A DNA stretch of 64,000 bases. It comes from Anaerolineaceae bacterium. GTDB lineage: Bacteria > Chloroflexota > Anaerolineae > Aggregatilineales > Phototrophicaceae. The stretch lies in NCBI GenBank assembly GCA_002699585.1, contig PABP01000038.1:62001-126000 (forward strand), given 5' to 3'. The translations under genes were made by a program, and so were the position numbers. Positions 39,170-56,337 of this stretch are shown here, piece by piece. The notes under the pieces are model-generated. The model was given only the letters and a program-made list of their open reading frames with translations, did no database searches and was not told the origin of the DNA. The stretch's first letter is position 1; every line of letters begins with the position of its first letter.

Positions 39170-41173
39170 ATGACAACGGATGATGCAACGCAAGCAGAAG
39201 CAGCGCCACAAATCGGCCTGGAAGATTATTTCAAGCTCAAGTACATCATGGGGGCATCGCTGTCCCCGGATGGTGCGCAAGTGGCCTATGTGCTGTCAGA
39301 ATATGATGCAGACGACGATGCCGATAAGACCACGCTCTGGTTAAAGGACATCAACACGGGCGATACGCGCCAGATGACCAGCGCCACATCCAGCGTCAGT
39401 TCGCCGCAGTGGTCGCCAGATGGCACGAAAATCGGCTTCATCTCGGATCGGAGTGGCAAGCCGCAGCTCTATGCGCTGCCCGTCGATGGTGGCGAAGCCC
39501 AGCAGATCACTGACATCGAACAGGGCGTGCGCGAAGGTCCAGTCTGGTCGCCAGATGGCAAGTGGATCGCATTTACATCGGGCTTCACTGAAGAAGACAT
39601 GCCGGATCATAGCAAGCCCTACCGCGTCACCCGTGATGTGTACCGCGTGGATGGCGTTGGTTATGTCGATCTGGCTGTGCAGCAGGTTTACGTGATTCCG
39701 GCTGAGGGTGGCGAAGCCAAACAGCTTACGGATGACACCTTCATCAACGCGGAGATAAAGTGGTCGCCGGATAGTAGCAAGCTGCTTTATGGCGCCATGC
39801 TTGAAACCAACAATCTTTATAAATTCTCGCCTCTGCTGCGCGTCGTCACACTGGATGGTGACATCACGCCCTTGTTGGATGACTGGGGCACGGTTGGCAG
39901 CGCGGCATGGATCGACAATGAGCGCATTGCCTTCATCGGGCAGGTTGATGGCCTACCCATGGGTTCCAAAGAGGACATCTGGGTCACGGATGTTAACGGG
40001 GCCGAACCTGTCAATCGGACGGCTGATTTCGCGGTGGGTGTCGGCAGCGGCCTACAGGGTGATATGCTCGCATTGGCGGCACTTCGCAGCCTGACTTTAC
40101 GCGTCGTTGATGGTGACGCCTACGTCTGGGCACAGATCGGCGGAACCGTCCAGATCTATAAATTCACCTTAACTGGCGACGAAGTGGCTGTGCCGCTGGT
40201 GACAGGTGACCGCGCTTGCCATCCGCTGGATATTCAAGGTGGGAGCATTCTCTATGCGGTCAGCGACTTCAATGACCCGCTCGAACTGTACGTTTGCAGT
40301 CTAGATGGCAGCAACGAGCAACAACTGACTGAGGTGAATGCAGCCTACCTGGCAACAAAAGTGCTGCCGGAGGTCGTCAATCTACATTGGCCGAGCGTGG
40401 ACGGTGTCGACGTCGAAGGCTGGTATATGAAGCCGACCATCGGCGAAGCCCCCTACCCGACCGTACTATACATTCATGGCGGCCCACACTCGGCATTTGG
40501 GAATGTTTTCTCGTTCGACTTCCAGATGCTGGCTGGCGCAGGTTATGGCGTGCTAGCGATCAACCATCGGGCGTCACTGGGTTATGGCGATGCCTTTTCG
40601 ACGGCCATCAAAGGGGATTGGGGCAACCTCGATTACCAGGATTTGATGACCGGCGTCGATTATGCCATCGAGCAAGGGTTGGCTGATGCGGATAAACTGG
40701 GCGCTTGCGGGATTTCCGGCGGTGGCAATTTGTCGGCATGGATTGTGGGTCATACGGACCGCTTTAAGGCAGCCATCCCAGAGAATCCAGTTACGAACTG
40801 GCTGAGTTTTTACGGCGTTTCCGACATTGGGGTGTGGTTTGCTACCGAAGAACTGGGTGGGCATCCACATGAGATACCGGACGTCTACGTGAAGTGCTCG
40901 CCGATTACCTATGCGTATCGCTGCACCACGCCGACGCTGCTGGTCCAGGGTGAGCATGATTATCGCTGCCCAGCGGAGCAATCCGAACAGTTCTATAACG
41001 TGCTCAAGGCCAATGGCTGCCCGGTGGAAATGCTGCGCTTGCCAAATAGCCCACATATCGGGTCTATCGCTGGCCCACCGCCGCTGCGCCGCGCCCAGAA
41101 CGAAGCCATGCTCGATTGGTTCAATCGCTACATCCTTGAAAAATACCCTGAATCCGAAAGCGAGACAGCCTGA
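39170..41173 (+). CDS. S9-family peptidase (acylaminoacyl-peptidase/prolyl-oligopeptidase type)
   Basis: 667 residues. An N-terminal propeller with TolB-like WSPDG repeats (about 30-390) is followed by an alpha/beta-hydrolase domain. The catalytic triad is S516 (GISGGG), D597 (GEHDYRCP) and H629 (SPHIGS). The oxyanion region is YIHGGPHSAFG. Members release N-acylated or short peptides entering through the propeller. No signal peptide; cytoplasmic. A GGAGAT SD lies 11 bp after the preceding gene's stop. Its stop codon TGA overlaps the next gene's ATG by one base, so the amidohydrolase is coupled to it. Confidence 0.93.
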   Translation: MTTDDATQAEAAPQIGLEDYFKLKYIMGASLSPDGAQVAYVLSEYDADDDADKTTLWLKDINTGDTRQMTSATSSVSSPQWSPDGTKIGFISDRSGKPQLYALPVDGGEAQQITDIEQGVREGPVWSPDGKWIAFTSGFTEEDMPDHSKPYRVTRDVYRVDGVGYVDLAVQQVYVIPAEGGEAKQLTDDTFINAEIKWSPDSSKLLYGAMLETNNLYKFSPLLRVVTLDGDITPLLDDWGTVGSAAWIDNERIAFIGQVDGLPMGSKEDIWVTDVNGAEPVNRTADFAVGVGSGLQGDMLALAALRSLTLRVVDGDAYVWAQIGGTVQIYKFTLTGDEVAVPLVTGDRACHPLDIQGGSILYAVSDFNDPLELYVCSLDGSNEQQLTEVNAAYLATKVLPEVVNLHWPSVDGVDVEGWYMKPTIGEAPYPTVLYIHGGPHSAFGNVFSFDFQMLAGAGYGVLAINHRASLGYGDAFSTAIKGDWGNLDYQDLMTGVDYAIEQGLADADKLGACGISGGGNLSAWIVGHTDRFKAAIPENPVTNWLSFYGVSDIGVWFATEELGGHPHEIPDVYVKCSPITYAYRCTTPTLLVQGEHDYRCPAEQSEQFYNVLKANGCPVEMLRLPNSPHIGSIAGPPPLRRAQNEAMLDWFNRYILEKYPESESETA

Positions 41174-42795
41174 TGCCAGACTATGACGTCATCCTGCGTG
41201 GTGGCACGCTGTATGATGGTTCCGGCGAAGCTGCTTTTACAGGTGACATCGCCCTGAATGGCGACCAAATCGCTGCTATCGGTGATCTGAGTGGCAAAAG
41301 CGCTACCCAAGACCTGGATGTCAGCGGGCTGGCAGTCGCGCCGGGGTTCATCAATATGCTGAGTTGGGCGGTCATGTCGCTGATTGTGGATGGCAAATCC
41401 CAGAGTGATATTCGCCAGGGCGTGACACTGGAAGTCGTTGGCGAAGCGATTTCTATGGGGCCGATTAACGACCAATCGCGGCCTGTTATGGAGGAAATGC
41501 GCGGGAATTTAGACTTTGACGTTGAGTGGGAGACATTGGGCGAGTATCTGCGATATATGGAAGATCGCGGTATTTCACCCAATATCACCTCATTCGTTGG
41601 TGCGACCCTACTGCGCATGAATACAGTCGGCTTCGATGACCGGGAAGCGACCCCGTCCGAGTTAGACGCCATGAAGCAGATGGTCCGGCAGGCGATGGAA
41701 GAAGGCGCGGTTGGCATGTCTACCGCGCTCATTTATCCGCCGGGTGCTTATGCAACGACCGAAGAACTGACTGAGTTGTGCCGCGTCGTTGCTGAGTATG
41801 ATGGGCTGTATATCTCGCATATGCGCAGCGAAGGCGATACGCTCGAAAATGGCCTGGGCGAATTCCTGAGCATCGTGCGCGATGCCAAGGTACGCGGCGA
41901 AATCTACCATCTGAAGATCGCCGGACAGGATAACTGGCATAAACTCGACTGGCTGATTGAGCAGGTCGAAGCCGCGCAAAAAGAAGGTCTGGATGTCACG
42001 GCGGATATGTATACCTACCCCGCTGGCGGCACCGGGCTGCAAGCCATCATCCCGCCCTGGGCACATGATGGCGGCACAGAAAAATTGCTTGAGCGTCTAC
42101 ACAACCCGGAACTGCGAGCACGCATTAAACATGAGATCAATCACAGTACAGAGGGTTGGGAAAATCTGTACCGGGCAGCGGGCGGTGCCGAAGGTATTCT
42201 GTTAGCTAACGTCGAGAATGCGGCCCTGCAACCGCTTGTCGGCAAGCGATTGGCAGAAGTTGCTGCTGAACGGGGTACATCCCCACTAGATACAGCGATG
42301 GACCTCGTCATTGAAGATCAGGGCAATATCGGGGCGATTTACTTCATCATTGATGAAGACAACATCCGGCGGCAGGTGCAACTGCCCTGGGTCAGCTTCT
42401 GCTCGGATTCGCCCTCATTGGCACCTGAAGGCATCTTCTTGAAGGAGCATCCGCATCCACGCGCCTATGGGTCGTTCTCGCGCTTCCTGGGGCATTATGC
42501 CTATCAGGAGAGGCTTGTTCCGTTGGAAGAAGCGGTGCGCAAGCTGTCGGCGTTCCCGGCAGAAACACTGCATATTCCTGAGCGTGGCCGCCTTAAAGCC
42601 GGGTACTTCGCTGATGTGGTCGTCTTTGACCCGGCGAGTGTCACGGCCCCGGCGACATTTGAAGAGCCAGCGCAATATGCAACAGGCATGACCCATGTTT
42701 TCGTCAATGGCGTGCAGGTGATTGCTGACGGAGAGCATACAGGTGCAACGCCCGGACGTTTTCTTAAGGGGCCGGGATACAAAGGCGAACAATAG
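41173..42795 (+). CDS. D-aminoacylase-family amidohydrolase lacking the HxH motif
   Basis: 540 residues, N-acyl-D-amino-acid deacylase family. It opens VILRGGTLYDGSG, with a GLAVAPGFI strand (53-60). The expected metal motif HxHxD is replaced by NMLSW (61-65), and the cysteine-containing NCG segment by EAI (91-93). H216 (ISHMRSEGD), H246 (IYHLKIAG) and D412 (CSDSP) are kept and have the family spacing. The C-terminal end has the usual GYFADVVVFDP strand. I recall a divergent subfamily with this same change, so it is probably a functional variant with an altered metal site. Likely role: hydrolysis of N-acyl or peptide amides downstream of the racemase. Last gene of the cluster. Confidence 0.88.
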   Translation: MPDYDVILRGGTLYDGSGEAAFTGDIALNGDQIAAIGDLSGKSATQDLDVSGLAVAPGFINMLSWAVMSLIVDGKSQSDIRQGVTLEVVGEAISMGPINDQSRPVMEEMRGNLDFDVEWETLGEYLRYMEDRGISPNITSFVGATLLRMNTVGFDDREATPSELDAMKQMVRQAMEEGAVGMSTALIYPPGAYATTEELTELCRVVAEYDGLYISHMRSEGDTLENGLGEFLSIVRDAKVRGEIYHLKIAGQDNWHKLDWLIEQVEAAQKEGLDVTADMYTYPAGGTGLQAIIPPWAHDGGTEKLLERLHNPELRARIKHEINHSTEGWENLYRAAGGAEGILLANVENAALQPLVGKRLAEVAAERGTSPLDTAMDLVIEDQGNIGAIYFIIDEDNIRRQVQLPWVSFCSDSPSLAPEGIFLKEHPHPRAYGSFSRFLGHYAYQERLVPLEEAVRKLSAFPAETLHIPERGRLKAGYFADVVVFDPASVTAPATFEEPAQYATGMTHVFVNGVQVIADGEHTGATPGRFLKGPGYKGEQ

Positions 42796-42949: not shown

Positions 42950-43681
42950 TCAGGATTGTTTGTGGAATTCTTGACTGAAGGTAAAGCGATCTCCCCGATA
43001 GATATGTTCAGAATATTCGCATATTGTGTCGTCAGCAGTATATGCGACACGTTTTTCGAGGATGAGGGGTGCGCCAATCGGAATTTCGAGCAATCTGGAC
43101 ATGTAGGCATCCGAAATAATCGATTCGATGGAAATATCGACCCGCACAATCTGAATACCATAGGCAACTAGCAAGAGTTCTCGGAGTGAGGATACCAGGT
43201 CATGTTTGAGTAAATCGGGTGCGGTGCTGATCGGTATGTGAATAGTCTCGATGATCAAGGGGTCATCTGCGACCAGTCGCAGACGATGAACCACATAATA
43301 TTCATCTTTGAACGGGATTTTATGCGAGACGCCGTCTTTTTCCGCACTTTGTATGTAAGTATCCAATAGAGTTGCTTTAGGACGTTCACCAATTTCTTTA
43401 GCGAGATCAACCAACCCCAGCCGGAGCGACGTGCGCTTGCCCTGGACATGGGGCATATCCACTACAAATGTTCCTCTGCCACGTTGCCGGGTAATCAACT
43501 TTTCACCCTCCAGAATATCCAGTGCACGACGGACCGTATGGCGATTGTGCCCGAACTCGTCACTCAAATCACGGTCAGACGGTAATCTCTCACCAGGCTT
43601 GTACGCACCCTGCTTGATGCGCAAAATCAAAATATCCGCGATTTGTCGGTAGATGGAAATTCCACTTTTCTTCTTTGACAT
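42950..43681 (-). CDS. GntR-family (HutC/UTRA) transcriptional regulator
   Basis: 243 residues. An N-terminal winged helix (YRQIADILILRIKQGAYKPG, minus ends; then LPSDRDLSDEFGHNRHTVRRAL) is followed by a UTRA ligand-binding domain (about 90-240). HutC/UTRA regulators such as NagR and DasR sense amino-sugar phosphates or related ligands and usually repress transporter operons. It is divergent from the sugar ABC operon. The intergenic region holds TGGTCTA and TAGACCA half-sites resembling those bound by DasR/NagR, so it very probably controls that operon and itself. Confidence 0.92.
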   Translation of the reverse strand: MSKKKSGISIYRQIADILILRIKQGAYKPGERLPSDRDLSDEFGHNRHTVRRALDILEGEKLITRQRGRGTFVVDMPHVQGKRTSLRLGLVDLAKEIGERPKATLLDTYIQSAEKDGVSHKIPFKDEYYVVHRLRLVADDPLIIETIHIPISTAPDLLKHDLVSSLRELLLVAYGIQIVRVDISIESIISDAYMSRLLEIPIGAPLILEKRVAYTADDTICEYSEHIYRGDRFTFSQEFHKQS

Positions 43682-43958: not shown

Positions 43959-45305
43959 ATGAATAAACGTTTGTTTAGTGTGTTGTTGGTTTTGATGATG
44001 GCCGTTATCGGCGTTTTTGGCAGTCAAGCACAGGAAACTGTCGACATCACCATTCGTTGTAAAGCCAATGTACAGGGTGGAGAAGGCTGGCGTTGTGACA
44101 ACTTCTCTGAAATCGAATCACAGGTAGAAGAGGAACTCGGTATCGATCTCAATCTCACACTGATTCAAGACGATATCGGGTGGGAAGATTACAAAACAGA
44201 ATTCCTCCTATCAACAGAAGCTGGCGATGCACCGGACATTATCCTTTCTGGTCATGAAGATATTGGCTCATGGGCACCTGCCGGATATATCATCCCGCTA
44301 GATGACAAACTCGGTGATTATCCAGAATTTGACGATGTCGTATCAACCCTATGGGAATCACAGAAATGGGACGGTCAAATTTGGGGCGTACCCCAGGACG
44401 CAGAAGCTCGCCCGATCTTCTACAGCAAATTGCTTCTGAGTGATCTTGGTTGGAGCGACGAAGAAATCGAATCTCTACCCGACCGCGTTGCTTCCGGTGA
44501 TTTCACATTCGACGATATGGTCGCAACGGCACAACAAGCCATCGAGGAAGGCATTATTGAAGAAGGTTTCGGCTATTGGCATCGTGGCAGCAACGGTTTC
44601 GACTGGTTGATGCCTTACTATGCAATGGGCGGCGAAATCCTCGGCGAAGACGGCAAATTAGTATGGGATAGTGAAGCACTCTTGCGCGTCTATGAAGCAG
44701 TTGCTTCCTGGGTCGAAACGGGCATAACTCGCTCTGACATGCTCGGCCTGAGCAGTAGTGAAGTTGTGTATCCAGCGGTTTCATCCGCAGAAGAAGTCCT
44801 GTTTTTCCAGGGTGGTAGTTGGAACTGGGCAAACATGGCTAAGAACTATGTTGCGGATAGAGGCGGTAACGACTACTTGCTGGAAAATATCGGGCTGATC
44901 CTTTACCCGGCAATGAGCGCTGGCACACCGGTCACTGTAACCCATCCACTGTCTTACATGATCAGTAGTGATAGCGAAAACCCGGACGTGGCAATGGCCT
45001 TGATCGCTGCGGTCACCACACCTGAAGCTAACAACCGTCACGCGATTGATAGCTTCCACCTCGGTATCCTGAATTCACAAGTTGAGTCCGAAGCCTACCA
45101 GAATGATCCGGTTCTCAGTAGCGCACACTATATGCTGGATTACACCCGTGTTGCACCGAATCATCCTGATTGGTCAGCATGGACGAATGCATATTGGCTT
45201 GGTATTCAAGCAGCAGAAACCGGTGCGTCCACACCACAGGAAGCGCTCGACCAAGCAACTGCACAATTACAGAATGAAGTAGGCGATAATATCACCTATA
45301 AATAG
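43959..45305 (+). CDS. Sugar ABC transporter substrate-binding protein (SBP_bac_1 family)
   Basis: 448 residues with a Sec signal peptide (about 1-24, ending GSQAQ) and no lipobox cysteine. The family 1 layout is clear: a DIILSGHEDIGSWAPAGYI strand-loop, minus ends, and GVPQDAEARPIFYSK, with aromatic residues suited to stacking on sugars (YWHRGSNGFDW). Two cysteines near the start (C34, C48) could form a disulfide. It is first in the operon binding protein, permease, permease-PDZ, ATPase, isomerase, behind the GntR-controlled promoter. A hairpin terminator after it would give excess binding protein relative to the permeases. The sugar is unknown; an amino sugar would suit the regulator. Confidence 0.92.
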   Translation: MNKRLFSVLLVLMMAVIGVFGSQAQETVDITIRCKANVQGGEGWRCDNFSEIESQVEEELGIDLNLTLIQDDIGWEDYKTEFLLSTEAGDAPDIILSGHEDIGSWAPAGYIIPLDDKLGDYPEFDDVVSTLWESQKWDGQIWGVPQDAEARPIFYSKLLLSDLGWSDEEIESLPDRVASGDFTFDDMVATAQQAIEEGIIEEGFGYWHRGSNGFDWLMPYYAMGGEILGEDGKLVWDSEALLRVYEAVASWVETGITRSDMLGLSSSEVVYPAVSSAEEVLFFQGGSWNWANMAKNYVADRGGNDYLLENIGLILYPAMSAGTPVTVTHPLSYMISSDSENPDVAMALIAAVTTPEANNRHAIDSFHLGILNSQVESEAYQNDPVLSSAHYMLDYTRVAPNHPDWSAWTNAYWLGIQAAETGASTPQEALDQATAQLQNEVGDNITYK

Positions 45306-45462: not shown

Positions 45463-46419
45463 ATGGAAAAAAAAGCACCTGATAGCCGGCGAAATATTCT
45501 CCGCGCTAATCTCACTGCATATGGGTTTTTGGCCCCAGCAGGGATACTCGTTATTATCTTTTTCTTGATTCCCGTGCTGCTCATCATCTATTTGAGCATG
45601 ACCAATCTCGCCACAACGAACTTCACAACCAATGTGAGCCAGATGGAATTTGTGGGACTAGAAAATTATGCCATCCTACTACGGGACCAATTTGCCGGAA
45701 AAATATTCTTTAATACGGTATTTTATGTGCTGGTCACGCTCGCGATATTCAATGTGTCGCTGGCGCTCATCGTCTCGTTGTTGACAATGCATATCCCACG
45801 GCGTGCAGGTTTTGCATTCCGTGCAATATGGATTTTGCCGCGTATCACAACCGCCACTGTTTACATTATGCTGTGGCGCAGATTGGCGGTGGAAGCCCCT
45901 TACGGCATCATCAACCAATTCAATACCCTGCTCAATCAACCTACTTATAACTATCTCGACGCACGACCATGGGAATTTGTTATCATGGCCAATGGCTTCA
46001 TCGGCGTATCATTCGGGATGATCATTTTCACGTCTGCGATTGAATCGATTCCCAAAGACCTGATGAATGCCTCGCTGGTAGACGGTTCAACGATTATGCA
46101 GCGCATTCGTTTTATCATCATGCCTCTGCTGCGCTGGCCGCTGTTGTTTGTCGTGACCTATCAGACCTTATCGTTGTTGACTTCATTCGAGCAAATCCTT
46201 CTCCTCACCAATGGTGGACCCGGGTTATATGACACGGAGGTGTGGTCGCTGACGGCGTATCACAGGGCATTATCCAATTACTTCGGCAATGCACAGTGGG
46301 GCTATGGATCGGCTTTTGCAGTGGTACTGGTGATCATCGGCGTCGTGCTGGCGGTGATTTATATGCGCGTGTTCCGCTTCAATGAACTGGTCGCAGAACC
46401 CAAGATTGAGGTGCTCTGA
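45463..46419 (+). CDS. Sugar ABC transporter permease, MalF type
   Basis: 318 residues with six membrane helices. The start is typical (NLTAYGFLAPAGILVIIFFLIP). The EAA loop reads SIPKDLMNASLVDGSTIMQRIRFIIMPLL, of which the first half is the ATPase-contact helix. It makes the pore with the PDZ-containing permease encoded next; its stop (TGA) overlaps the next ATG by one base. No large extracytoplasmic P2 domain like that in enteric MalF is present here, which is of interest because the partner carries a PDZ domain instead. Confidence 0.93.
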   Translation: MEKKAPDSRRNILRANLTAYGFLAPAGILVIIFFLIPVLLIIYLSMTNLATTNFTTNVSQMEFVGLENYAILLRDQFAGKIFFNTVFYVLVTLAIFNVSLALIVSLLTMHIPRRAGFAFRAIWILPRITTATVYIMLWRRLAVEAPYGIINQFNTLLNQPTYNYLDARPWEFVIMANGFIGVSFGMIIFTSAIESIPKDLMNASLVDGSTIMQRIRFIIMPLLRWPLLFVVTYQTLSLLTSFEQILLLTNGGPGLYDTEVWSLTAYHRALSNYFGNAQWGYGSAFAVVLVIIGVVLAVIYMRVFRFNELVAEPKIEVL

Positions 46420-47969
46420 TGACAGTCACCGATAATGAATCTCAGGGTATCATCCATGTCCCGACGCTTATTATCGCACTCAAAAATGGCCTACTGGTTG
46501 TCGTGATATTCAGCCTCTTGGCGCTAATTCTACAGGGTATCCTTAAACCACTGGTGGCATCTCTGCAAGTTGTAGAAACGGTGACCACGACCTTATCCCT
46601 GATCTTAATCTTGGTCTTGCCCTATATCGCTTACATCATGAGTGGTAGCGCCGTTCGTGAATTGGTAAAAACATCAATCCCACAAGCGCTATTGACGGCA
46701 GTGATCGCGACAATTGTGCTCTTTTCGATTATTTCTGTTGGACACTATCTCCTCAATCTAGGGATATTTGCCCCAACTTCCTCGATACAAATGACCGTTG
46801 TCGATACCGATGAGGGTGTACTGGTTGAATCGGTAGTCGAAGGTGGCGCGGCAGACATTGCCGAAGTAAAAGTTGGTGATGTGATAACGGCAATCCGCCG
46901 TGATCCGGTTGACCGTGCTACGTTGATGGCGCGGGTCGCACAATCAGAAGTTGATTCACCGTTACGCTTGCGAATGATCCGTGATGGAGAAGAAATCCAG
47001 GTAACCGTACGCACGGTTCTGGCCACATCGTCCGATGCATCGGCACTATTTCCAGGTCTGATTATGGCACTGGGAGTGACACTCATCACCATTATCTGGC
47101 CCGGTCAATTTACACCCTATGTGATTCTGCTAGCGATACTATCACCGCTATTTTTGGGCTATCTGTGGTTAATTATCGCAACATTTTCCACACGTACTCA
47201 AGGTATTATCCCGCTCGATGGGGAGGGCAATATTGGTGGATTCACTCTCTCCAACTGGGACTTCCTGTTTGGAAAAGACATCGTCGGACTCAACGTCAGC
47301 ATCTGGCAAGTCACCCTAAACTCGTTGATTATCGCAGTATCCATGATGTTGATCGTACTAGTGGTCTCATCAATGGCTGCTTATGCCCTTTCACGGATGC
47401 ACTTTCCTGGGCGCAAAGCATTTCTATCGTTTACATTGGTTCTGCATGGCTTCCCAGCAGTAACCCTCTTGATCCCGATCTTCTTTGTCCTTGCCAATCT
47501 TGGACGAACACCTGTGATCGGTGAAATAGTGGGCTTCAACAAACCGATTGGTATCGCACTGGTGATGGTGGCGTTTCAATTGCCACTCGGTGTCTGGCTA
47601 ATGAAGGGGTTTTTCGATGGCATCCCCTGGGATATCGAACGTTCGGCAATGATTGATGGCGCATCACGCTGGCGCGTCTACTGGGAAATTCTATTGCCAC
47701 AAATACGCCCAGGCTTATTGGCGCTTGGGATTTTCGCATTTTTGGGTGGTTGGAATGCCTTCCTCATCCCGCAGACCTATAGTACCGGTGCGGGGATGGT
47801 TAATCTGCCGGTATTCCTCAACCAATTGATTTCAGAAACGGCTCCAGTCAACTGGAATCAGATTGCGGCAGTAGGCTTATTCCAGTTGGTGCCGGTGTTT
47901 ATCCTTTTTATCTTTGCACAAGAATATCTACTGAATATCTATGCGGGTGGCACCAAAGGGTTTTCCTAG
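46419..47969 (+). CDS. Sugar ABC transporter permease, MalG type, with inserted PDZ domain
   Basis: 516 residues, against about 275 for ordinary MalG-type permeases. Three hydrophobic helices (about 16-42, 54-75, 88-113) lead to a PDZ domain (about 124-200). In it, GVLVESVVEGGAADIA, KVGDVITAIRRDPV and LRMIRDGEEIQVTVR match the PDZ pattern of HtrA/Tsp proteins. Two more helices follow (about 209-228, 233-256). The standard MalG core begins about 270 (FTLSNWDFLF), with the EAA motif at GIPWDIERSAMIDGASRW (401-418). If the N-terminus is inside, the PDZ domain sits outside, after helix 3, the same topological place as the P2 loop of MalF that holds the binding protein. No frameshift or duplicated start separates the parts. 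Confidence 0.9.
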   Translation: MTVTDNESQGIIHVPTLIIALKNGLLVVVIFSLLALILQGILKPLVASLQVVETVTTTLSLILILVLPYIAYIMSGSAVRELVKTSIPQALLTAVIATIVLFSIISVGHYLLNLGIFAPTSSIQMTVVDTDEGVLVESVVEGGAADIAEVKVGDVITAIRRDPVDRATLMARVAQSEVDSPLRLRMIRDGEEIQVTVRTVLATSSDASALFPGLIMALGVTLITIIWPGQFTPYVILLAILSPLFLGYLWLIIATFSTRTQGIIPLDGEGNIGGFTLSNWDFLFGKDIVGLNVSIWQVTLNSLIIAVSMMLIVLVVSSMAAYALSRMHFPGRKAFLSFTLVLHGFPAVTLLIPIFFVLANLGRTPVIGEIVGFNKPIGIALVMVAFQLPLGVWLMKGFFDGIPWDIERSAMIDGASRWRVYWEILLPQIRPGLLALGIFAFLGGWNAFLIPQTYSTGAGMVNLPVFLNQLISETAPVNWNQIAAVGLFQLVPVFILFIFAQEYLLNIYAGGTKGFS

Positions 47970-49095: not shown

Positions 49096-49327
49096 AACAA
49101 TTCTGAGAACAGCTCGACATGATGTAGAAACGAGTAGAGAAACAAGCAAGAGGCTAGCTCACGAATACAGATATTGAGTGCCCTTCTGGATTTACAAAAT
49201 TTCAAGAGAACAGGCATTCCCTTATCTCTACTAGGAAACCTGGAAATGCCATCAATGAAGCCGTTTTGCCTAAAAACTTCTGTCAATCAGCACTCAACTA
49301 TATTTGGGTGATGCCACGGATAATCTC

Positions 49328-50296
49328 ATGGAAATCGATGGAATCGGGAAAGATGTTAGTAATGGATACATTGATGGGCGGCTAGAGCGGTTAGATCAGT
49401 GCTTAACGTATTACGCAACGCTAGGATATCGTGTCGCGGAATTACCCATCACGGGATTGAGTGTGATTATTAATGGCAAGCTGTTTGAGCCCCGTGTGAA
49501 GCGCGTCAAGGATATCCTAGCGAAATATGATTTTCGATATACGGTACACACACCCAACCGCACTAATCTGGCCTACGGCGCCAATCATGAGCTAGAAAAA
49601 TCGGTTCTGGAGGCCTCTATACAATTCTGCCAGAGTATCGGCGCGAAACGACTTGTTTATCACAGTGGCTTACAGGCTCTTGATGCGGCACGTACGGGAA
49701 CAGTCTTGCTCCCGACAGATGATGAGATGGCATATGGTGCAGAAAGGGAAATAGCTGCATTGCGGGCCCTGGCATCGGTTGCACAAGACGCAGATGTCAT
49801 CATCGGTATGGAAAACGGCGATCCACATCTGTGGGAATATGCTGTGCTCAAGCAAAATCAAAAACGTCCTGACGAATTGCCCAAGTATCATGCTCGCCTG
49901 CGGATTCAGCCCATCATCGAACAACTTGAGGCGATCAACCACCCCAATATAGCGATGACGCTTGACCTCGCGCATTTGCATCTGGCAACCCACGCTGTTG
50001 GCGATAATTATCTCAGCGCCGTTGAACAGGCTAGCCCATGGGTGCGGCATCTGCACATCAACGATAATTTCGGGAAATTGGATGTCGGATTTGATAACGA
50101 GAAAGACCGCCTGCCCTATGGTGAAGCTGATTTGCACCTACCGCCAGGTTGGGGTGCTATACCGTTCGCAGAGGCATTCGCAAAGCTAGAAAACTACAAA
50201 GGTGAAATCATCCTAGAAATCAAAGATCGCTATTGGGATCACTTTGGCGACGCGCTCAACAATACTCGACAAATACTCGCCGACCATGGTATCTAA
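49328..50296 (+). CDS. Sugar phosphate isomerase/epimerase-like TIM-barrel protein
   Basis: About 322 residues from ATG 49328; an in-frame TTG at 49304 is a possible earlier start, and neither has a strong SD. The xylose-isomerase-like (AP_endonuc_2) fold is seen in YTVHTPNR, RLVYHSGL, VIIGMENGDPH, AMTLDLAHLHLA, VRHLHINDNFG and the late EIILEIKDRYW strand, with E, D, H and E residues at the usual metal positions. It probably isomerises or epimerises a sugar acid or sugar derived from the substrate imported by the preceding ABC system. The substrate is not known. It ends the GntR-linked unit. Confidence 0.82.
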   Translation: MEIDGIGKDVSNGYIDGRLERLDQCLTYYATLGYRVAELPITGLSVIINGKLFEPRVKRVKDILAKYDFRYTVHTPNRTNLAYGANHELEKSVLEASIQFCQSIGAKRLVYHSGLQALDAARTGTVLLPTDDEMAYGAEREIAALRALASVAQDADVIIGMENGDPHLWEYAVLKQNQKRPDELPKYHARLRIQPIIEQLEAINHPNIAMTLDLAHLHLATHAVGDNYLSAVEQASPWVRHLHINDNFGKLDVGFDNEKDRLPYGEADLHLPPGWGAIPFAEAFAKLENYKGEIILEIKDRYWDHFGDALNNTRQILADHGI

Positions 50297-50608
50297 AGTC
50301 GAGAATTAGCCAAGTTTTGAGAGATAACATCCTATTGCATGACTCCCCCCGCACCATCCTCGCCTGACGGTGGGCGTCGATGGTGAAAAGCTGTGATACG
50401 GCAGGTATGATAATCATCTAATCTGTACATAGTGGCCCACTTTCTGGAATACGCATAGCCTGAGTTTGCGCTTTGGCTAATCTCGTCTAGTTGGTACATA
50501 AACTTTTGTTGATATTCACGAGATAAATGGTGTGCCTGGCGAGTTACATTTGACTTGCAATTTGTTGCACATTCAAAGCGTCCATCAGGAGATTGGGGTA
50601 AAGCCACA
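50297..50608. other. Intergenic region upstream of the BMP-type binding protein
   Basis: No gene is supported. TTGACT at about 50549 may be a -35 box, but no good -10 lies 17 bp away. No purine-riboswitch core was recognised in spite of the nucleoside context. The SD region AGGAGATTGGGG lies 12-23 nt before the ATG. Confidence 0.3.
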
Positions 50609-51841
50609 ATGAAGTTCAACTTCAAGGTTTTAAGCTTAGTGGTGCTGCTGCTAAGTATCGGCATCGGCACAGTCATTGCACAAGATGACACGTATAAGGT
50701 CGCATTCTTGCTCGCTGATTCACCATCGGACCAGGGTTGGAATGCCGCACATTATCGTGGCATTGAGCAAATCAAAGAGCTTGGCGAAGTTGTCGAAGAA
50801 AACGGTCTATCTTTCAATGTCGCACTTGAAGACGGAACAGTATTAGAAGTGCAGGTTGTCGAAAATATCGGCTACAACGATGCTGACATCGAACGTGTTG
50901 CACGTCAGGTCATCAACGGTGGCGCGGACTATGTCTTTGGCACATGGTTTGATTCCATGAGCGCGATCTCTCGCCTCGCTGAAGAATTCCCAGATGTGTT
51001 GTTCGAGCATGGGTCAGGCTATCCCTTCGTCGCATCGAACGACACCAATTTCAGCACCTACTTCATCCGTATTGAAGAAAGTGACTACGTTGCAGGTTAC
51101 GTCGCTGGCCTGCTCGGTTATTCTGACGTGGGGTTAGTTGGCACCTTCTCGATCCCTGAACCGGTACGTGGCGTCAATGGATTTGCCCTGGGCCTGCAAG
51201 ACGGCCTCGCGGAAATTGGCGAAGATCCCGCTAAATCGAACGTCCAGGTCATCTGGATCAATAGCTGGCTGGACCGTGAATTGGAAGTCCAGGCGGCTAC
51301 GGCCCTGCTGGATGAAGGATTCACCGTCATCCGCCAAATGGCAGACACACCCTATTCCAGCCAGACCACCTGCGAAACTGAGGGCAATATTGCCATCGGC
51401 TATGGTAGTGATGTTTCTGGCGTTGCCGATTGCTCGTTGATGACCAACGAATGGAAGTGGGGTGCGTATTACGTGCCGCAGGTGCAGGCTGCACTCGATG
51501 GCACCTGGGAAACCCACGACTGGTGGGAGGGTTTTGCTGCCGATGCGTTGGGTATCACAGGATGGAACGATGAACTCGTGCCTGCCGACGTTCAGGAAAA
51601 AGCACAAGCGCTCATTGATAGCATCGCAGCGGGTGAATTCAACCCCTTCTGTGGTCCCATCAGCGGGACGGGCCTGTCACCAGAAGGTGATGTCGTCGAA
51701 ATCGACGTACCAGAAGGCATGTGCCTGAGCGATATGGACCAGCTCACCATGCAGTGGTATGTCGATGGTGTCAGCGGTGAGTATCCGGCTGCCCCACCTG
51801 ACGGCTTTGAGCTGGAGCTTGTCGAAGCGGCCTCAGAATAA
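50609..51841 (+). CDS. BMP-family nucleoside-type ABC transporter substrate-binding protein
   Basis: 410 residues from ATG 50609; the frame continues upstream, but only this start gives a signal peptide (about 1-26, ending TVIAQ). There is no lipobox. Bmp/Med family features: VAFLLADSPSDQGWNAAHYRGI, minus its last residues, ADYVFGTWFDSM, then AGYVAGLLGYSDVGLVGTF and IAIGYGSDVSG. Four cysteines in the C-terminal half could form disulfides. BMP proteins bind nucleosides or purines. The ABC permeases and ATPase on the opposite strand (52752-56337) are of the matching kind. A terminator hairpin follows at once. Confidence 0.92.
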   Translation: MKFNFKVLSLVVLLLSIGIGTVIAQDDTYKVAFLLADSPSDQGWNAAHYRGIEQIKELGEVVEENGLSFNVALEDGTVLEVQVVENIGYNDADIERVARQVINGGADYVFGTWFDSMSAISRLAEEFPDVLFEHGSGYPFVASNDTNFSTYFIRIEESDYVAGYVAGLLGYSDVGLVGTFSIPEPVRGVNGFALGLQDGLAEIGEDPAKSNVQVIWINSWLDRELEVQAATALLDEGFTVIRQMADTPYSSQTTCETEGNIAIGYGSDVSGVADCSLMTNEWKWGAYYVPQVQAALDGTWETHDWWEGFAADALGITGWNDELVPADVQEKAQALIDSIAAGEFNPFCGPISGTGLSPEGDVVEIDVPEGMCLSDMDQLTMQWYVDGVSGEYPAAPPDGFELELVEAASE

Positions 51842-51853
51842 GTATGGTTACAA

Positions 51854-51886
51854 GGGGAATTGCCGATGCGACAATTCCCCTTTATT
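51854..51886 (+). terminator. Terminator after the BMP-type binding-protein gene
   Basis: GGGGAATTG (51854-51862) / CAATTCCCC (51872-51880), a 9-bp perfect stem with 9-nt loop, then TTTATT. It lies 13 nt after the stop and 26 nt before the next gene, so it probably trims but does not abolish downstream expression. Confidence 0.75.
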
Positions 51887-51911
51887 GAATAATCAACCAG
51901 GAAATGACTTA

Positions 51912-52748
51912 ATGACTCCTCTTCAAATCGAACTATCCCCTGAGCGCGTCCTGCGGCACATTCTGCGGCCTGCCACTGATCTCAGTGAATACATGACTGT
52001 GCAGGTCATCCCAACCGATACAGAACCAATTCCCACATTGGCAGGCCCCTACTACCTGGCCAACATTGGGTCCGATGAGGGCAATCCGCTGTTGCTGGAA
52101 CTGCGATTTGCCGCGACGGATCATGGTTTTTCGATTGCGCTACTGATGACTAACGAGCGCTATCCGATTGACCTGACGGTGATTGCCAAAGAATTTATGG
52201 GACGTTTAGCCGATCAAAGTATCGCGTTTGATGGCGTGATTGGGCCAGAAAGCCTGGGGCCAAAGCTCTCGCAGGAAATCGCACGGCTCAAAGGGGACTA
52301 TACGCCGCATACGACCTTGCAAAAAGGCAAGCCACGCGCCGATGATGACGGCAACGTGACAGTTGCAGCCCCTAAAGCGTGGATCAGCGATGATAGTGGT
52401 GTGGCGGTTTCGTCGGGGACATCGCACCCGGCAGCCCAGCAAAAGCTGTACATCGACCCGCTGGTCGCGGAGAAATTCGCAACTTTACCCAACGGTGTCT
52501 TGCTGGTGGATGATGCACGGCTATCTTCGGGCACGGTTTCCAGCTCGATTGAACTATTGACCAAAATGAATATCAAGATCGCGGCGGTCGCTACTGTATT
52601 GAATGAGCATGACCCGGTTGACGAGGTCGATGGCATTCCGTATATCTGGTTAACGAAGCTGCCGATTTTCGATGAGGTCGAAGGTGGATGGCAACCGCGT
52701 GCAGGGAGCTTCAAAGGGTTAGATAACTTCTTCGTGAAAGTGCGCTAG
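51912..52748 (+). CDS. Phosphoribosyltransferase-like protein linked to nucleoside import
   Basis: 278 residues from ATG 51912, with AGGAAA 8 nt upstream; the open frame extends back into the binding-protein gene and is not used. The PRPP-loop pattern is VLLVDDARLSSGTVSSS, where typical enzymes have VDD-V-x-x-T-G-x-T; the two acidic residues and SGT are kept. A DGVIGPESLGPKLSQE strand supports a type I PRTase fold, with an insertion between (about 125-175) and an N-terminal extension. It probably salvages a base released after import, or binds PRPP as a regulator. It ends 3 bp from the stop of the convergent permease gene. Confidence 0.75.
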   Translation: MTPLQIELSPERVLRHILRPATDLSEYMTVQVIPTDTEPIPTLAGPYYLANIGSDEGNPLLLELRFAATDHGFSIALLMTNERYPIDLTVIAKEFMGRLADQSIAFDGVIGPESLGPKLSQEIARLKGDYTPHTTLQKGKPRADDDGNVTVAAPKAWISDDSGVAVSSGTSHPAAQQKLYIDPLVAEKFATLPNGVLLVDDARLSSGTVSSSIELLTKMNIKIAAVATVLNEHDPVDEVDGIPYIWLTKLPIFDEVEGGWQPRAGSFKGLDNFFVKVR

Positions 52749-52751
52749 CAC

Positions 52752-53699
52752 TTATTCCCGATGGTAGACAGTCCCCAGGGCCGATGGCACGCCATTATGG
52801 CGATAGAGGGATCGTCGGCCTGATATGAACAGCAGCGCGACAATGGTCGCAATATAGGGTGCCATGCTCAGGAAAAATGTCGGGATGCTGGTACCCGCTG
52901 CCTGCATACGGAATTGAATGGCCGTGACACCCCCAAACAAGAGCGCACCAATCACCGCCCTTAATGGGTTCCACAACGAGAAAATCACCATCGCAATGGC
53001 GATCCAGCCACGTCCACTGGTGATGTCCACGCTCCAACCCGGTGTGTAGGCCAGCGATAAATGTGCGCCGCCCAGGCCGATGAGCACACCGCCCACAATC
53101 GTATAAACATAGCGCAAGCGCGTGACACTGACGCCGAGGGAATCCGCCGCGCGGGGATTTTCCCCAATGGCGCGTAAGTGAATCCCTGGCCGCGTCTTGA
53201 ACAAGTAATACCATATCAAGGGCACGAGCAGATAAAGCAGGTATGTGAGCGCATCCTGATGAAAGAAGGATTCGCCGACAATCGGCAGTGAGGACAGGCC
53301 CGGTACGGCAAAACGCTGTAATTTGGGGCCAGCCAGCCCCACCAGGGTCGTGCCTTCTGGACCGATATTCTGGCCGATAAAGTCCGCAAGTCCGGTGCTG
53401 AAGATCACCAATGCCAAGCCGCTAGCCACCTGGTTCGCCGAGAGGGTGACGCACCAGAACGCATGCACGGCAGCAACCAACCCACCGACGATCATGCCAG
53501 CGAAGACGCCAACTAGCAGGCTACCGCTATAGAACGCCCCGGCAAAGCCTGCCAAAGCTGATAGCAGCATCATGCCTTCGATGCCGAGGTTGAGCACACC
53601 TGAGCGTTCGGTCATGATGCCGCCCAGGGTCGCAAACAGGACCGATGTCCCGGCACGTATGGCAATGCTCAGCACAGATTCAATTAAAGCTAGCTCCAT
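52752..53699 (-). CDS. Nucleoside-type ABC transporter permease (NupQ-like)
   Basis: 315 residues, strongly hydrophobic (about eight helices). The BPD_transp_2 family pattern is seen in GGIMTERSGVLNLGIEGMML, minus ends, and NPRAADSLGVSVTRLRY, the ATPase-contact loop. It is the second permease of the BMP-type importer, encoded 8 bp after the first permease on the minus strand. It is distinct from the sugar permeases elsewhere in this window, which are of the MalF/MalG family. Confidence 0.93.
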   Translation of the reverse strand: MELALIESVLSIAIRAGTSVLFATLGGIMTERSGVLNLGIEGMMLLSALAGFAGAFYSGSLLVGVFAGMIVGGLVAAVHAFWCVTLSANQVASGLALVIFSTGLADFIGQNIGPEGTTLVGLAGPKLQRFAVPGLSSLPIVGESFFHQDALTYLLYLLVPLIWYYLFKTRPGIHLRAIGENPRAADSLGVSVTRLRYVYTIVGGVLIGLGGAHLSLAYTPGWSVDITSGRGWIAIAMVIFSLWNPLRAVIGALLFGGVTAIQFRMQAAGTSIPTFFLSMAPYIATIVALLFISGRRSLYRHNGVPSALGTVYHRE

Positions 53700-53707
53700 G
53701 TCCTACC

Positions 53708-54793
53708 CTATTCTGCGACCATCTGCTGCGATGGTGGTCTGACGTTCAAGCGCACGCGATACCGTAAAAAGAGATCGCCAGCAGCAATACAAAGTAAAAC
53801 GGCCCCCTGCAAAATCAGCGCAAATGAGGCCGGAAGGTTCATCGACAGTTGAAGCTGCTCGCTGCCGACAGATAGGCCAGCCACAAACACCGCCGCGACG
53901 ATCACGCCCGGAGGCGACAACCGTCCCAGAAAAGCGACGATCAAGGCCGTAAAGCCATAACCGACTGCCAGCCCATTCTGCATGCGGTGGCTGATGCCCG
54001 CGACCTCGCCCATGCCTGCTAACCCGGCAATGCCACCTGACAGGAACATAACGAGCATCAAATTGCGCATGACGTTGATGCCAGCATAGCGGGCTGACAA
54101 TGGACTTTTTCCTTGCACCCTGATTTCGTAGCCGATGGTCGTGCGATTGAGCAAAAACCAGATGAGCGCGGCAATAATCAGGCCAAAGATGATGCCAATA
54201 TGCAGTTGTCCGGTCAGACGCGGCAACCATGCCGCACGGGGGAATTCTGCTGTTCCAGGGAAGCCAAAGCCGCGCGGATCGCGCCATGCATCAAAGAAGA
54301 GGTACTCGACCCACAACACAGCCACGTAATTCAGCATGAGGGTAGAGACGATTTCATTGACGCCACCGAATATCTTGAGCAGCGCCGGTATCAGACCCCA
54401 GAGTGCCCCACCTACGAACCCCGCCAGGATAACCGCAGGCAGAAGCAACGGTTCGGGCAACCACTCTGACCAGAAAAGCGCGACACCTGCCGCAGCAAAA
54501 CCGCCCATCACCAACTGGCCTTCTGCGCCGATGTTCCAGATATTGGCACGTAGGGCCAGTGAGACGCCTAAGCCGGTCAACAAGAGCGGCGACGCTTTGA
54601 CCAGGGTATCGACTGTGGCAAACTCGCTGCCGAATGCGCCAACAAACATGAGGCGATACGCCTCAATGGGGTTAACACCGACGATCAACAACAATAACGC
54701 GCCAAAGGCCAGCGCCACAAGCACCGCGCCCAGGATGGTCAGCAGAAGCGTCCATTGACCATAACCCTGCCGGCGCTCCAGCGTTAATTTCAT
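53708..54793 (-). CDS. Nucleoside-type ABC transporter permease (NupP-like)
   Basis: 361 residues, about eight to ten helices, BPD_transp_2 family. The features ANIWNIGAEGQLVMGG and SPLSARYAGINVMRNLML place it in the NupP/YufP group for nucleoside or purine uptake. Its ATG overlaps the end of the ATPase gene by 4 bp, so the two are translationally coupled. It forms a heterodimer with the following permease. Confidence 0.93.
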   Translation of the reverse strand: MKLTLERRQGYGQWTLLLTILGAVLVALAFGALLLLIVGVNPIEAYRLMFVGAFGSEFATVDTLVKASPLLLTGLGVSLALRANIWNIGAEGQLVMGGFAAAGVALFWSEWLPEPLLLPAVILAGFVGGALWGLIPALLKIFGGVNEIVSTLMLNYVAVLWVEYLFFDAWRDPRGFGFPGTAEFPRAAWLPRLTGQLHIGIIFGLIIAALIWFLLNRTTIGYEIRVQGKSPLSARYAGINVMRNLMLVMFLSGGIAGLAGMGEVAGISHRMQNGLAVGYGFTALIVAFLGRLSPPGVIVAAVFVAGLSVGSEQLQLSMNLPASFALILQGAVLLCIAAGDLFLRYRVRLNVRPPSQQMVAE

Positions 54794-56337
54794 GTCATTT
54801 GTCCTTCAGATTGCATTTGCTGATGGGACGTACGATTGACGCCCGTCATCATCAGGCCGAGTTCATCAATGTCCGCCTGCGCTGCGGGGATCGTCCCCAT
54901 AGATACCCCTCCAGAAAGCACCATGATGCGGTCGCTCAGCAAAAGAAGTTCGTCCAGGTCTTCAGAAATCAGCAGGATGGCTTTGCCTTGTTTTCGCTCT
55001 TCCAGCAACAGCCGATGCACGGCTTCTGCAGCGCCGACATCCAGGCCGCGCGTCGGCTGCGATACGATGATGGCTTCTGGCGCGATGCTGATTTCCCGTG
55101 CGAGAATCACTTTCTGAATATTGCCACCGGAGAGCTTTTCAATGGGTGTATCCACACTGGAAGTAACCACATTGAAGTGCTTGACCATCCGTGAAGCGAA
55201 TTTTTTGATTGCTGAGAAATTAAGCAAGGAAGAACGAGAAAATGGTTTTTGGCGATAGCTCTTGAGGATCAAATTGTCACTGACAGCCAGACCGGGAACG
55301 CTGCCCATATGCAGGCGATCTTCAGGGACATAGCCCAGGTATTGTGAGACGGTACGGTCAAGGCTGTTGCGGGTGATGTCTTTGTCACGAATCCATACGC
55401 GACCATTTTGCAACGGGCGCAAACCCGCCAGAACTTCTGCCAGTTCACGCTGGCCGTTACCGGCAACACCCGCGATGCCCAGGATCTCCCCTTTATGGAT
55501 TTCAAAGCTCAGGTCACTGAGGGCACGCAAGCCACGATCTCCTAGGGCACTGAGACCTTGAGCGCGAAGGATGATTTCGTCACCTGTTTGCTCATGTGCG
55601 CGTTGGACACGCGCCATCTCGTGACCTAGCATGTAACGGGCCAATTGGGTTGGCGATGTGGTAGCCGTATCAACTGTGACGACGTTCTCGCCACTGCGCA
55701 ATACCGTCACGCGGTCAGCAAACTGCATAACCTCATCGAGCTTGTGGGTAATCAACACGACGGATTTACCCAGGGACATCATCTGACGCAGGGCATGACC
55801 TAATTGTTCGGCCTCCTGGGGCGTGAGTACAGCCGTCGGCTCGTCCAGAATGAGAATATCCGCACCGCGATGCAGCAGGCGCAGAATTTCGACACGTTGT
55901 TTTTCGCCTACCGATAGCTGCCAGACGCGAGCATCGAGGGGAACATCAAGGCCGTACTGCTTGGACAGACTTTCAAATTCGGTGCGAAGTTTTTTACGAT
56001 TTGGAATGAGGTCGACCGTATGCAGGCCAAGCAGCAGATTCTCCTCAACAGTCATGGTTTCTACCAGCATAAAGTGCTGATAGACCATACCAATCCCTTG
56101 TTTGAGGGCATCCGCTGGCGAGTGCAAATTAACCTCGCGACCTTTAATCAGGATGCGCCCGCTATCCGGTTGGTAAGCCCCCGCCAGAATTTTCATGAGG
56201 GTGGATTTACCAGCCCCATTTTCCCCCAGAAGCGCATGAATCTCACCAGCCCTGACGGTCAAGTCAATGCTGTTATTGGCGACCACGCCTGAAAACGTCT
56301 TGGTGATCGCAATCATTTCTACCGATAAGTCGGACAT
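54790..56337 (-). CDS. Nucleoside-type ABC transporter ATP-binding protein with two NBDs (NupO-like)
   Basis: 515 residues, two nucleotide-binding domains. First half: Walker A GENGAGKST (38-46), signature LSVGEKQRVEIL, Walker B ILILDEPTAVLTPQE. Second half: degenerate P-loop GVAGNGQRELAEVLAG, with the classical lysine replaced, and signature LSGGNIQKV followed by VSQPTRGLDVGA. This is the normal asymmetry of simple-sugar/nucleoside importers. It is first of the minus-strand unit ATPase-permease-permease that serves the binding protein at 50609. A tandem repeat lies upstream of its start at 56414-56442. Confidence 0.93.
   Translation of the reverse strand: MSDLSVEMIAITKTFSGVVANNSIDLTVRAGEIHALLGENGAGKSTLMKILAGAYQPDSGRILIKGREVNLHSPADALKQGIGMVYQHFMLVETMTVEENLLLGLHTVDLIPNRKKLRTEFESLSKQYGLDVPLDARVWQLSVGEKQRVEILRLLHRGADILILDEPTAVLTPQEAEQLGHALRQMMSLGKSVVLITHKLDEVMQFADRVTVLRSGENVVTVDTATTSPTQLARYMLGHEMARVQRAHEQTGDEIILRAQGLSALGDRGLRALSDLSFEIHKGEILGIAGVAGNGQRELAEVLAGLRPLQNGRVWIRDKDITRNSLDRTVSQYLGYVPEDRLHMGSVPGLAVSDNLILKSYRQKPFSRSSLLNFSAIKKFASRMVKHFNVVTSSVDTPIEKLSGGNIQKVILAREISIAPEAIIVSQPTRGLDVGAAEAVHRLLLEERKQGKAILLISEDLDELLLLSDRIMVLSGGVSMGTIPAAQADIDELGLMMTGVNRTSHQQMQSEGQMT

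Follow-up and report, generated by a model that had tools for sequence, protein, structure and literature searches.

The window, that is, the whole 64,000-nucleotide stretch of DNA analysed here, carries an ABC importer operon with a PDZ domain in one of its membrane subunits. The operon includes a binding protein, a second permease, the PDZ permease itself and an ATPase. The genes of the locus, and the parts of the PDZ permease, are the following:

42950..43681, minus strand: divergent GntR-UTRA regulator, by profile match
43959..45305, plus strand: extracytoplasmic binding protein with a signal peptidase I type signal (..SQAQE) and without lipobox; C-terminus (..GDNITYK) predicted to be folded
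45463..46419, plus strand: partner permease of the MalF/UgpA type, 318 aa, no large P2 loop
46419..47969, plus strand: whole gene of the PDZ-bearing MalG-type permease, 516 aa, ten predicted membrane helices
46458..46754, plus strand: extra helices TM1-TM3 (residues 14-47, 55-78 and 87-112), from AlphaFold2 secondary structure
46767..47027, plus strand: PDZ domain (residues 117-203), HtrA-like and predicted to be extracytoplasmic, from PF13180, phmmer matches to DegP/DegQ, the folds 2pzd and 3stj, and charge bias
46782..46793, plus strand: SIQM (residues 122-125), in the place of the peptide-carboxylate (GLGF) loop
47037..47096, plus strand: extra helix TM4 (residues 207-226), re-entering the membrane after the PDZ in the AlphaFold2 model
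47103..47966, plus strand: canonical MalG-type core (residues 229-516) with the EAA loop near 404-427, from BPD_transp_1, the 2r6g fold and invariant EAA residues
48016..49095, plus strand: ATPase subunit of the MalK/UgpC type
49304..50296, plus strand: downstream AP_endonuc_2-type TIM-barrel protein

The last base of the partner permease gene is shared with the start of the PDZ permease. The divergent GntR-UTRA regulator likely controls the importer operon, and its homologs adjoin the operon in two relatives (L001 and L034). The TIM-barrel gene is specific to this window and is not conserved at the loci of relatives. Just upstream of the regulator gene, a Dpp5-like S9 peptidase is followed without a gap by a D-aminoacylase-like amidohydrolase (39170-42795). 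A second ABC import system lies at 50555-56337, with a BMP-like binding protein, also devoid of a lipobox, and two permeases on the opposite strand; a further ORF of 515 aa in this region may encode its ATPase.

The reading frame of the PDZ permease has 516 codons; it starts with the ATG at 46419 and runs without interruption to its stop at 47969. Two unrelated domains score above their curated Pfam cut-offs in it: BPD_transp_1 at residues 316-504 (49.7 bits vs. 26.4) and PDZ_2, PF13180, at residues 125-198 (34.5 bits vs. 27). A second PDZ profile, PF00595, barely exceeds its cut-off. The best sequence matches of the PDZ, according to phmmer, are the PDZ domains of DegQ and DegP. In the core, E407, A410, D413, G414 and P427 of the EAA loop are invariant among 49 sequences. 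The protein does not qualify as a maltose MalG by the NCBIfam equivalog (92.2 bits vs. a cut-off of 261). The helices TM1-TM3 occur in no MalG and are missing from the PDZ-less sister proteins. The ORF is thus a complete MalG-type (CUT1) permease of a type I ABC importer, preceded by an N-terminal four-helix PDZ module. This bears out the preliminary description of an enlarged MalG-type permease, with a core matching MalG and four helices in addition.

An AlphaFold2 model was built with 49 relatives (mean pLDDT 79.9, pTM 0.50). In the model, three helices are followed by the PDZ sandwich, the helix 207-226 and, from residue 229, the six-helix permease, which brings the membrane helices to ten. 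The PDZ itself is predicted with a pLDDT of about 92 and superimposes on the PDZ of HtrA2 (2pzd) with 1.1 Å over 80 residues (Z 15.7) and on PDZ1 of DegQ (3stj) with 1.2 Å over 83 residues. The presence of a PDZ domain, proposed earlier, is therefore borne out by profile, model confidence and fold. Its place between helices 3 and 4 also stands, although its limits are nearer to residues 117-203 than to the 124-200 first given. Residues 224-514 superimpose on E. coli MalG (2r6g_G) with a Z of 22.0 and 4.9 Å over 275 residues. As the pTM is low, the placement of the PDZ relative to the core in the model is not trustworthy.

The orientation is derived from homology. The MalG core starts inside, so that the two-residue turn at 226-229 would be cytoplasmic and the PDZ outside. 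The mean charge (K+R minus D+E, 42 sequences) agrees with this prediction: +1.5 for loop 2-3 and +2.0 for loop 6-7, vs. -2.1 for loop 1-2, -5.1 for the PDZ segment and -2.5 for the P loop. The PDZ is consequently predicted on the outer face, as had been deduced before from the helix count.

A scan of genome contigs yielded 41 relatives with the whole architecture, on separate contigs and with 52-70% identity. All except one of these contigs (40/41) are labelled Chloroflexota or one of its classes or orders; the remaining one, L038, bears the label Bacteroidetes, perhaps through misbinning. For another 39 relatives, the alignment does not begin before about residue 229. The N-terminal module is present in 49 of the 154 genomes of the bacterium's own order, and an even sampling of the class shows the complete module in that order only. 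An assembly error joining two genes, named at the outset as what could overturn the fusion, can be set aside: the same fusion, free of stops, recurs in these 49 genomes and on the 41 separate contigs, which leaves an artefact or accidental join a negligible chance.

Among the 51 core orthologs of the order, 49 carry the PDZ, one (G385) is truncated at the end of its contig, and one (G344) is truly PDZ-less. In the core tree, all PDZ proteins form one clade (support 98/95), to which the G344 protein is sister; the module was gained once, and no loss is seen. In this PDZ-less sister MalG (L333, identical to L071, on contig G344:C147), the first outer loop is enlarged by a different insertion, which spans about 85 residues and is predicted to contain two hydrophobic stretches. 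In the window's own genome, the fusion is a single gene among 45 permease-related matches, and the genomes with the fusion contain dozens of other importers that lack it. No free-standing four-helix-PDZ module was found among the matches listed for 298 genomes of the class and 154 of the order, where the remaining module matches span mainly the PDZ part. Viral and plasmid copies of the module were searched for, and none was found.

The core is the most conserved part of the protein (mean entropy 0.52), followed by the PDZ (1.18) and the extra helices (1.4-1.8). The median pairwise dN/dS, used as a ranking only because many pairs are near saturation, follows the same order: 0.18 for the core, 0.28 for the PDZ, 0.54 for helix 4 and 0.55 for helices 1-3. 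Purifying selection is hence stronger on the PDZ than on the helices that support it. G133, A145, G153, D154, R161 and R188 are invariant in the PDZ, and R183, R185, E191, E192 and Q194 almost so. The carboxylate loop, x-L-G-V in HtrA domains, reads on the contrary S-L-Q/E-M in the relatives: residue 124 is Q or E in 41 of 42 sequences, and only L038 has SLGF. The glycine of the GLGF type, characteristic of peptide-binding PDZ domains, is thus absent from 41 of the 42. Taken together, sequence comparison and structure prediction establish the fusion, a predicted PDZ fold, a predicted intact core, a single origin, retention and purifying selection.

This pattern bears on two explanations that involve no binding protein. 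The module could be structural, the extra helices and the PDZ stabilizing the importer or helping in its assembly with no separate partner. The helices are poorly conserved, as would fit an anchor facing the lipids, the PDZ has lost its GLGF glycine, and the different two-helix insertion of the PDZ-less G344 protein indicates that additions to this subunit are tolerated or acquired. However, the charged residues R161 and R188 are invariant on the surface of the PDZ and not just in its core, and we regard a structural role as somewhat unlikely. Alternatively, the PDZ would tune the importer by sensing or recruiting another exported or membrane partner. This could be a regulator, a protease or damaged envelope proteins, recognized by their C-termini. 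PDZ domains are known to tune DegS and RseP. The nearest relatives of this PDZ are found in HtrA proteases, it is more conserved than its anchor helices, and its conserved charged set (R160, R161, R183, R185, R188, E191 and E192) is unlike a plain peptide groove. On the other hand, no conserved protease or regulator gene accompanies the operon among the neighbourhoods examined, and we consider this explanation rather improbable, slightly more so than the structural one.

The binding protein was one of the partners proposed at first, and it was described as unanchored. This observation stands. Lipoboxes were called by pattern and by eye rather than by SignalP, and the automated reading got some of the sampled frames wrong. 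In all 37 readable PDZ operons, the binding protein has a signal of the signal peptidase I type and no lipobox, while the binding proteins of the PDZ-less sisters in Chloroflexota and Actinomycetota mostly have the lipobox cysteine, and lipoboxes are present in PDZ-less sister genomes. The correlation between a PDZ and a missing lipobox is perfect across clades. It was nevertheless rejected as proof of anchoring, since it is confounded by a single gain and by a whole lineage without lipoboxes. In the window's own genome, none of the 30 SBP_bac_1 proteins has a recognizable lipobox, despite the presence of the lgt and lspA genes; neither has any of about 60 readable binding proteins in ten other PDZ genomes, nor those in the genome of the PDZ-less sister G344. 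Essentially all SBP_bac_1 proteins of the order (e.g., L101-L130 and L173-L232) apparently lack a lipobox and carry a signal of the signal peptidase I or Tat type. Lineages related to the order have lipoprotein binding proteins.

The loss of the anchor is lineage-wide and apparently older than the PDZ. As it is found throughout the lineage, and beside dozens of importers free of the fusion, the missing anchor alone is no sufficient explanation of the PDZ; these other importers imply that such a device is not needed in general. A PDZ capturing and positioning the freely secreted binding protein from outside, as a replacement of the lipid anchor that arose after the order stopped lipidating its binding proteins, is a reading that we consider less likely than not.

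A variant put forward in the preliminary description is a classical PDZ interaction, in which the domain would bind the binding protein by its C-terminal tail. The domain is of the HtrA peptide-binding type, its loop SL(Q/E)M is well conserved (SLGF in L038) and the binding protein has no anchor. However, in the model of the binding protein, the chain ends in a strand, residues 445-447 (pLDDT of the block about 93), directly after a helix, and no free tail is left. The last residues, ..ITVR or ..ITYK in the PDZ operons, are of the same kind as in the PDZ-less sisters (..VIIR or ..VIIK), and the C-terminal residue is R, K or Q, not a hydrophobic one. The folded end and its likeness to that of the PDZ-less sisters make tail capture unlikely and, with the loop glycine replaced, we give it little credence. 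The C-terminal leucine of the partner permease (..EPKIEVL), which resembles a PDZ ligand, was also considered and rejected: it is equally present in the PDZ-less sisters, and it is cytoplasmic by homology. The density of PDZ-clade-specific sites is 5.4 per 100 in the binding protein, little above the 4.7 of the partner permease and the 3.8 of the core, which is not decisive.

The substrate need not be the sugar that was first assumed. A glycerophosphodiesterase (GDPD) gene follows the ATPase gene in 26 of the 41 PDZ loci, and GDPD genes are found near 12 of the 39 PDZ-less sister loci. In the protein encoded at the PDZ loci, the GDPD domain is C-terminal, and the N-terminal part, 245 residues long, has no Pfam match. 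This N-terminal domain of about 245 residues is conserved in the protein at L002:8609-10060 and its relatives, and it is encoded alone at L030 8595-9329 (minus strand). The window's own operon has no GDPD gene and carries the TIM-barrel protein gene in its place; a full-length GDPD homolog (56% identity) is encoded elsewhere in the genome. The partner permease scores best against UgpA, far below the cut-off. The NCBIfam models of UgpA and UgpE are missed with 64.5 vs. 335 and 66 vs. 297, respectively. The binding protein of the window does not match UgpB. From the neighbours in relatives, we infer with moderate confidence that the substrate is a glycerophosphodiester or glycerol-3-phosphate rather than a plain sugar.

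The best explanation as a whole, to which we assign a probability of roughly 0.35, is a type I importer whose MalG-type subunit gained, once, an outer PDZ that holds or orients the soluble binding protein. The MalG-type subunit of an importer of the MalFGK/Ugp kind would have acquired the N-terminal four-helix module with its PDZ once in this order of Chloroflexota. MalG is the side of MalFGK2 on which the binding protein docks with its C-lobe, and the PDZ would probably lie beside the corresponding docking surface. There, it may hold or orient the binding protein through a domain-to-domain or internal contact instead of a C-terminal tail, and so serve as a lipid anchor or the MalF P2 loop does in other systems. 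An auxiliary docking or retention domain appears to be the most economical reading of the data, and the leading, if tentative, one; docking is hardly more likely than a partner encoded outside the operon or a role that is purely structural.

One importer thus has a PDZ in its membrane subunit as a fixed trait, under selection, throughout an order. This raises the question of how cells that secrete soluble, apparently unanchored binding proteins keep them near their importers, for which the orthologs with and without PDZ offer a natural comparison.

Taken singly, PDZ fold, permease and operon are of known kinds; the fusion is the new part, within the open-access literature searched. As the preliminary description had supposed, no PDZ fusion with an ABC importer permease is described in this open-access literature. 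The domain resembles the PDZ of HtrA, DegP, DegQ and HtrA2 in fold (1.1-1.2 Å) and in its best phmmer matches. It differs in a shorter first part and in the Q or E that replaces the glycine (41/42) and, instead of sitting behind a protease domain, it is set in a membrane permease. With Ugp, most relatives share the order binding protein, permease, permease, ATPase and glycerophosphodiesterase of the E. coli ugpBAECQ operon, which serves glycerophosphodiester uptake (PMC4415409). Ugp, on the contrary, has no PDZ, and the window's operon no GDPD. Unliganded MalE binds outward-open MalFGK2 tightly, at about 79 nM (PMC3328499), and, according to work cited in the same paper, MalE interacts with the MalF P2 loop throughout the cycle. 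The similarity to MalG extends to the six-helix core, the EAA loop, the fold (Z 22) and an operon with binding protein, second permease and ATPase, whereas MalG itself has neither the extra N-terminal helices nor a PDZ. The large extracytoplasmic domain of MalFGK2 is the P2 loop, carried by MalF; here, the added domain is found on the MalG-type subunit.
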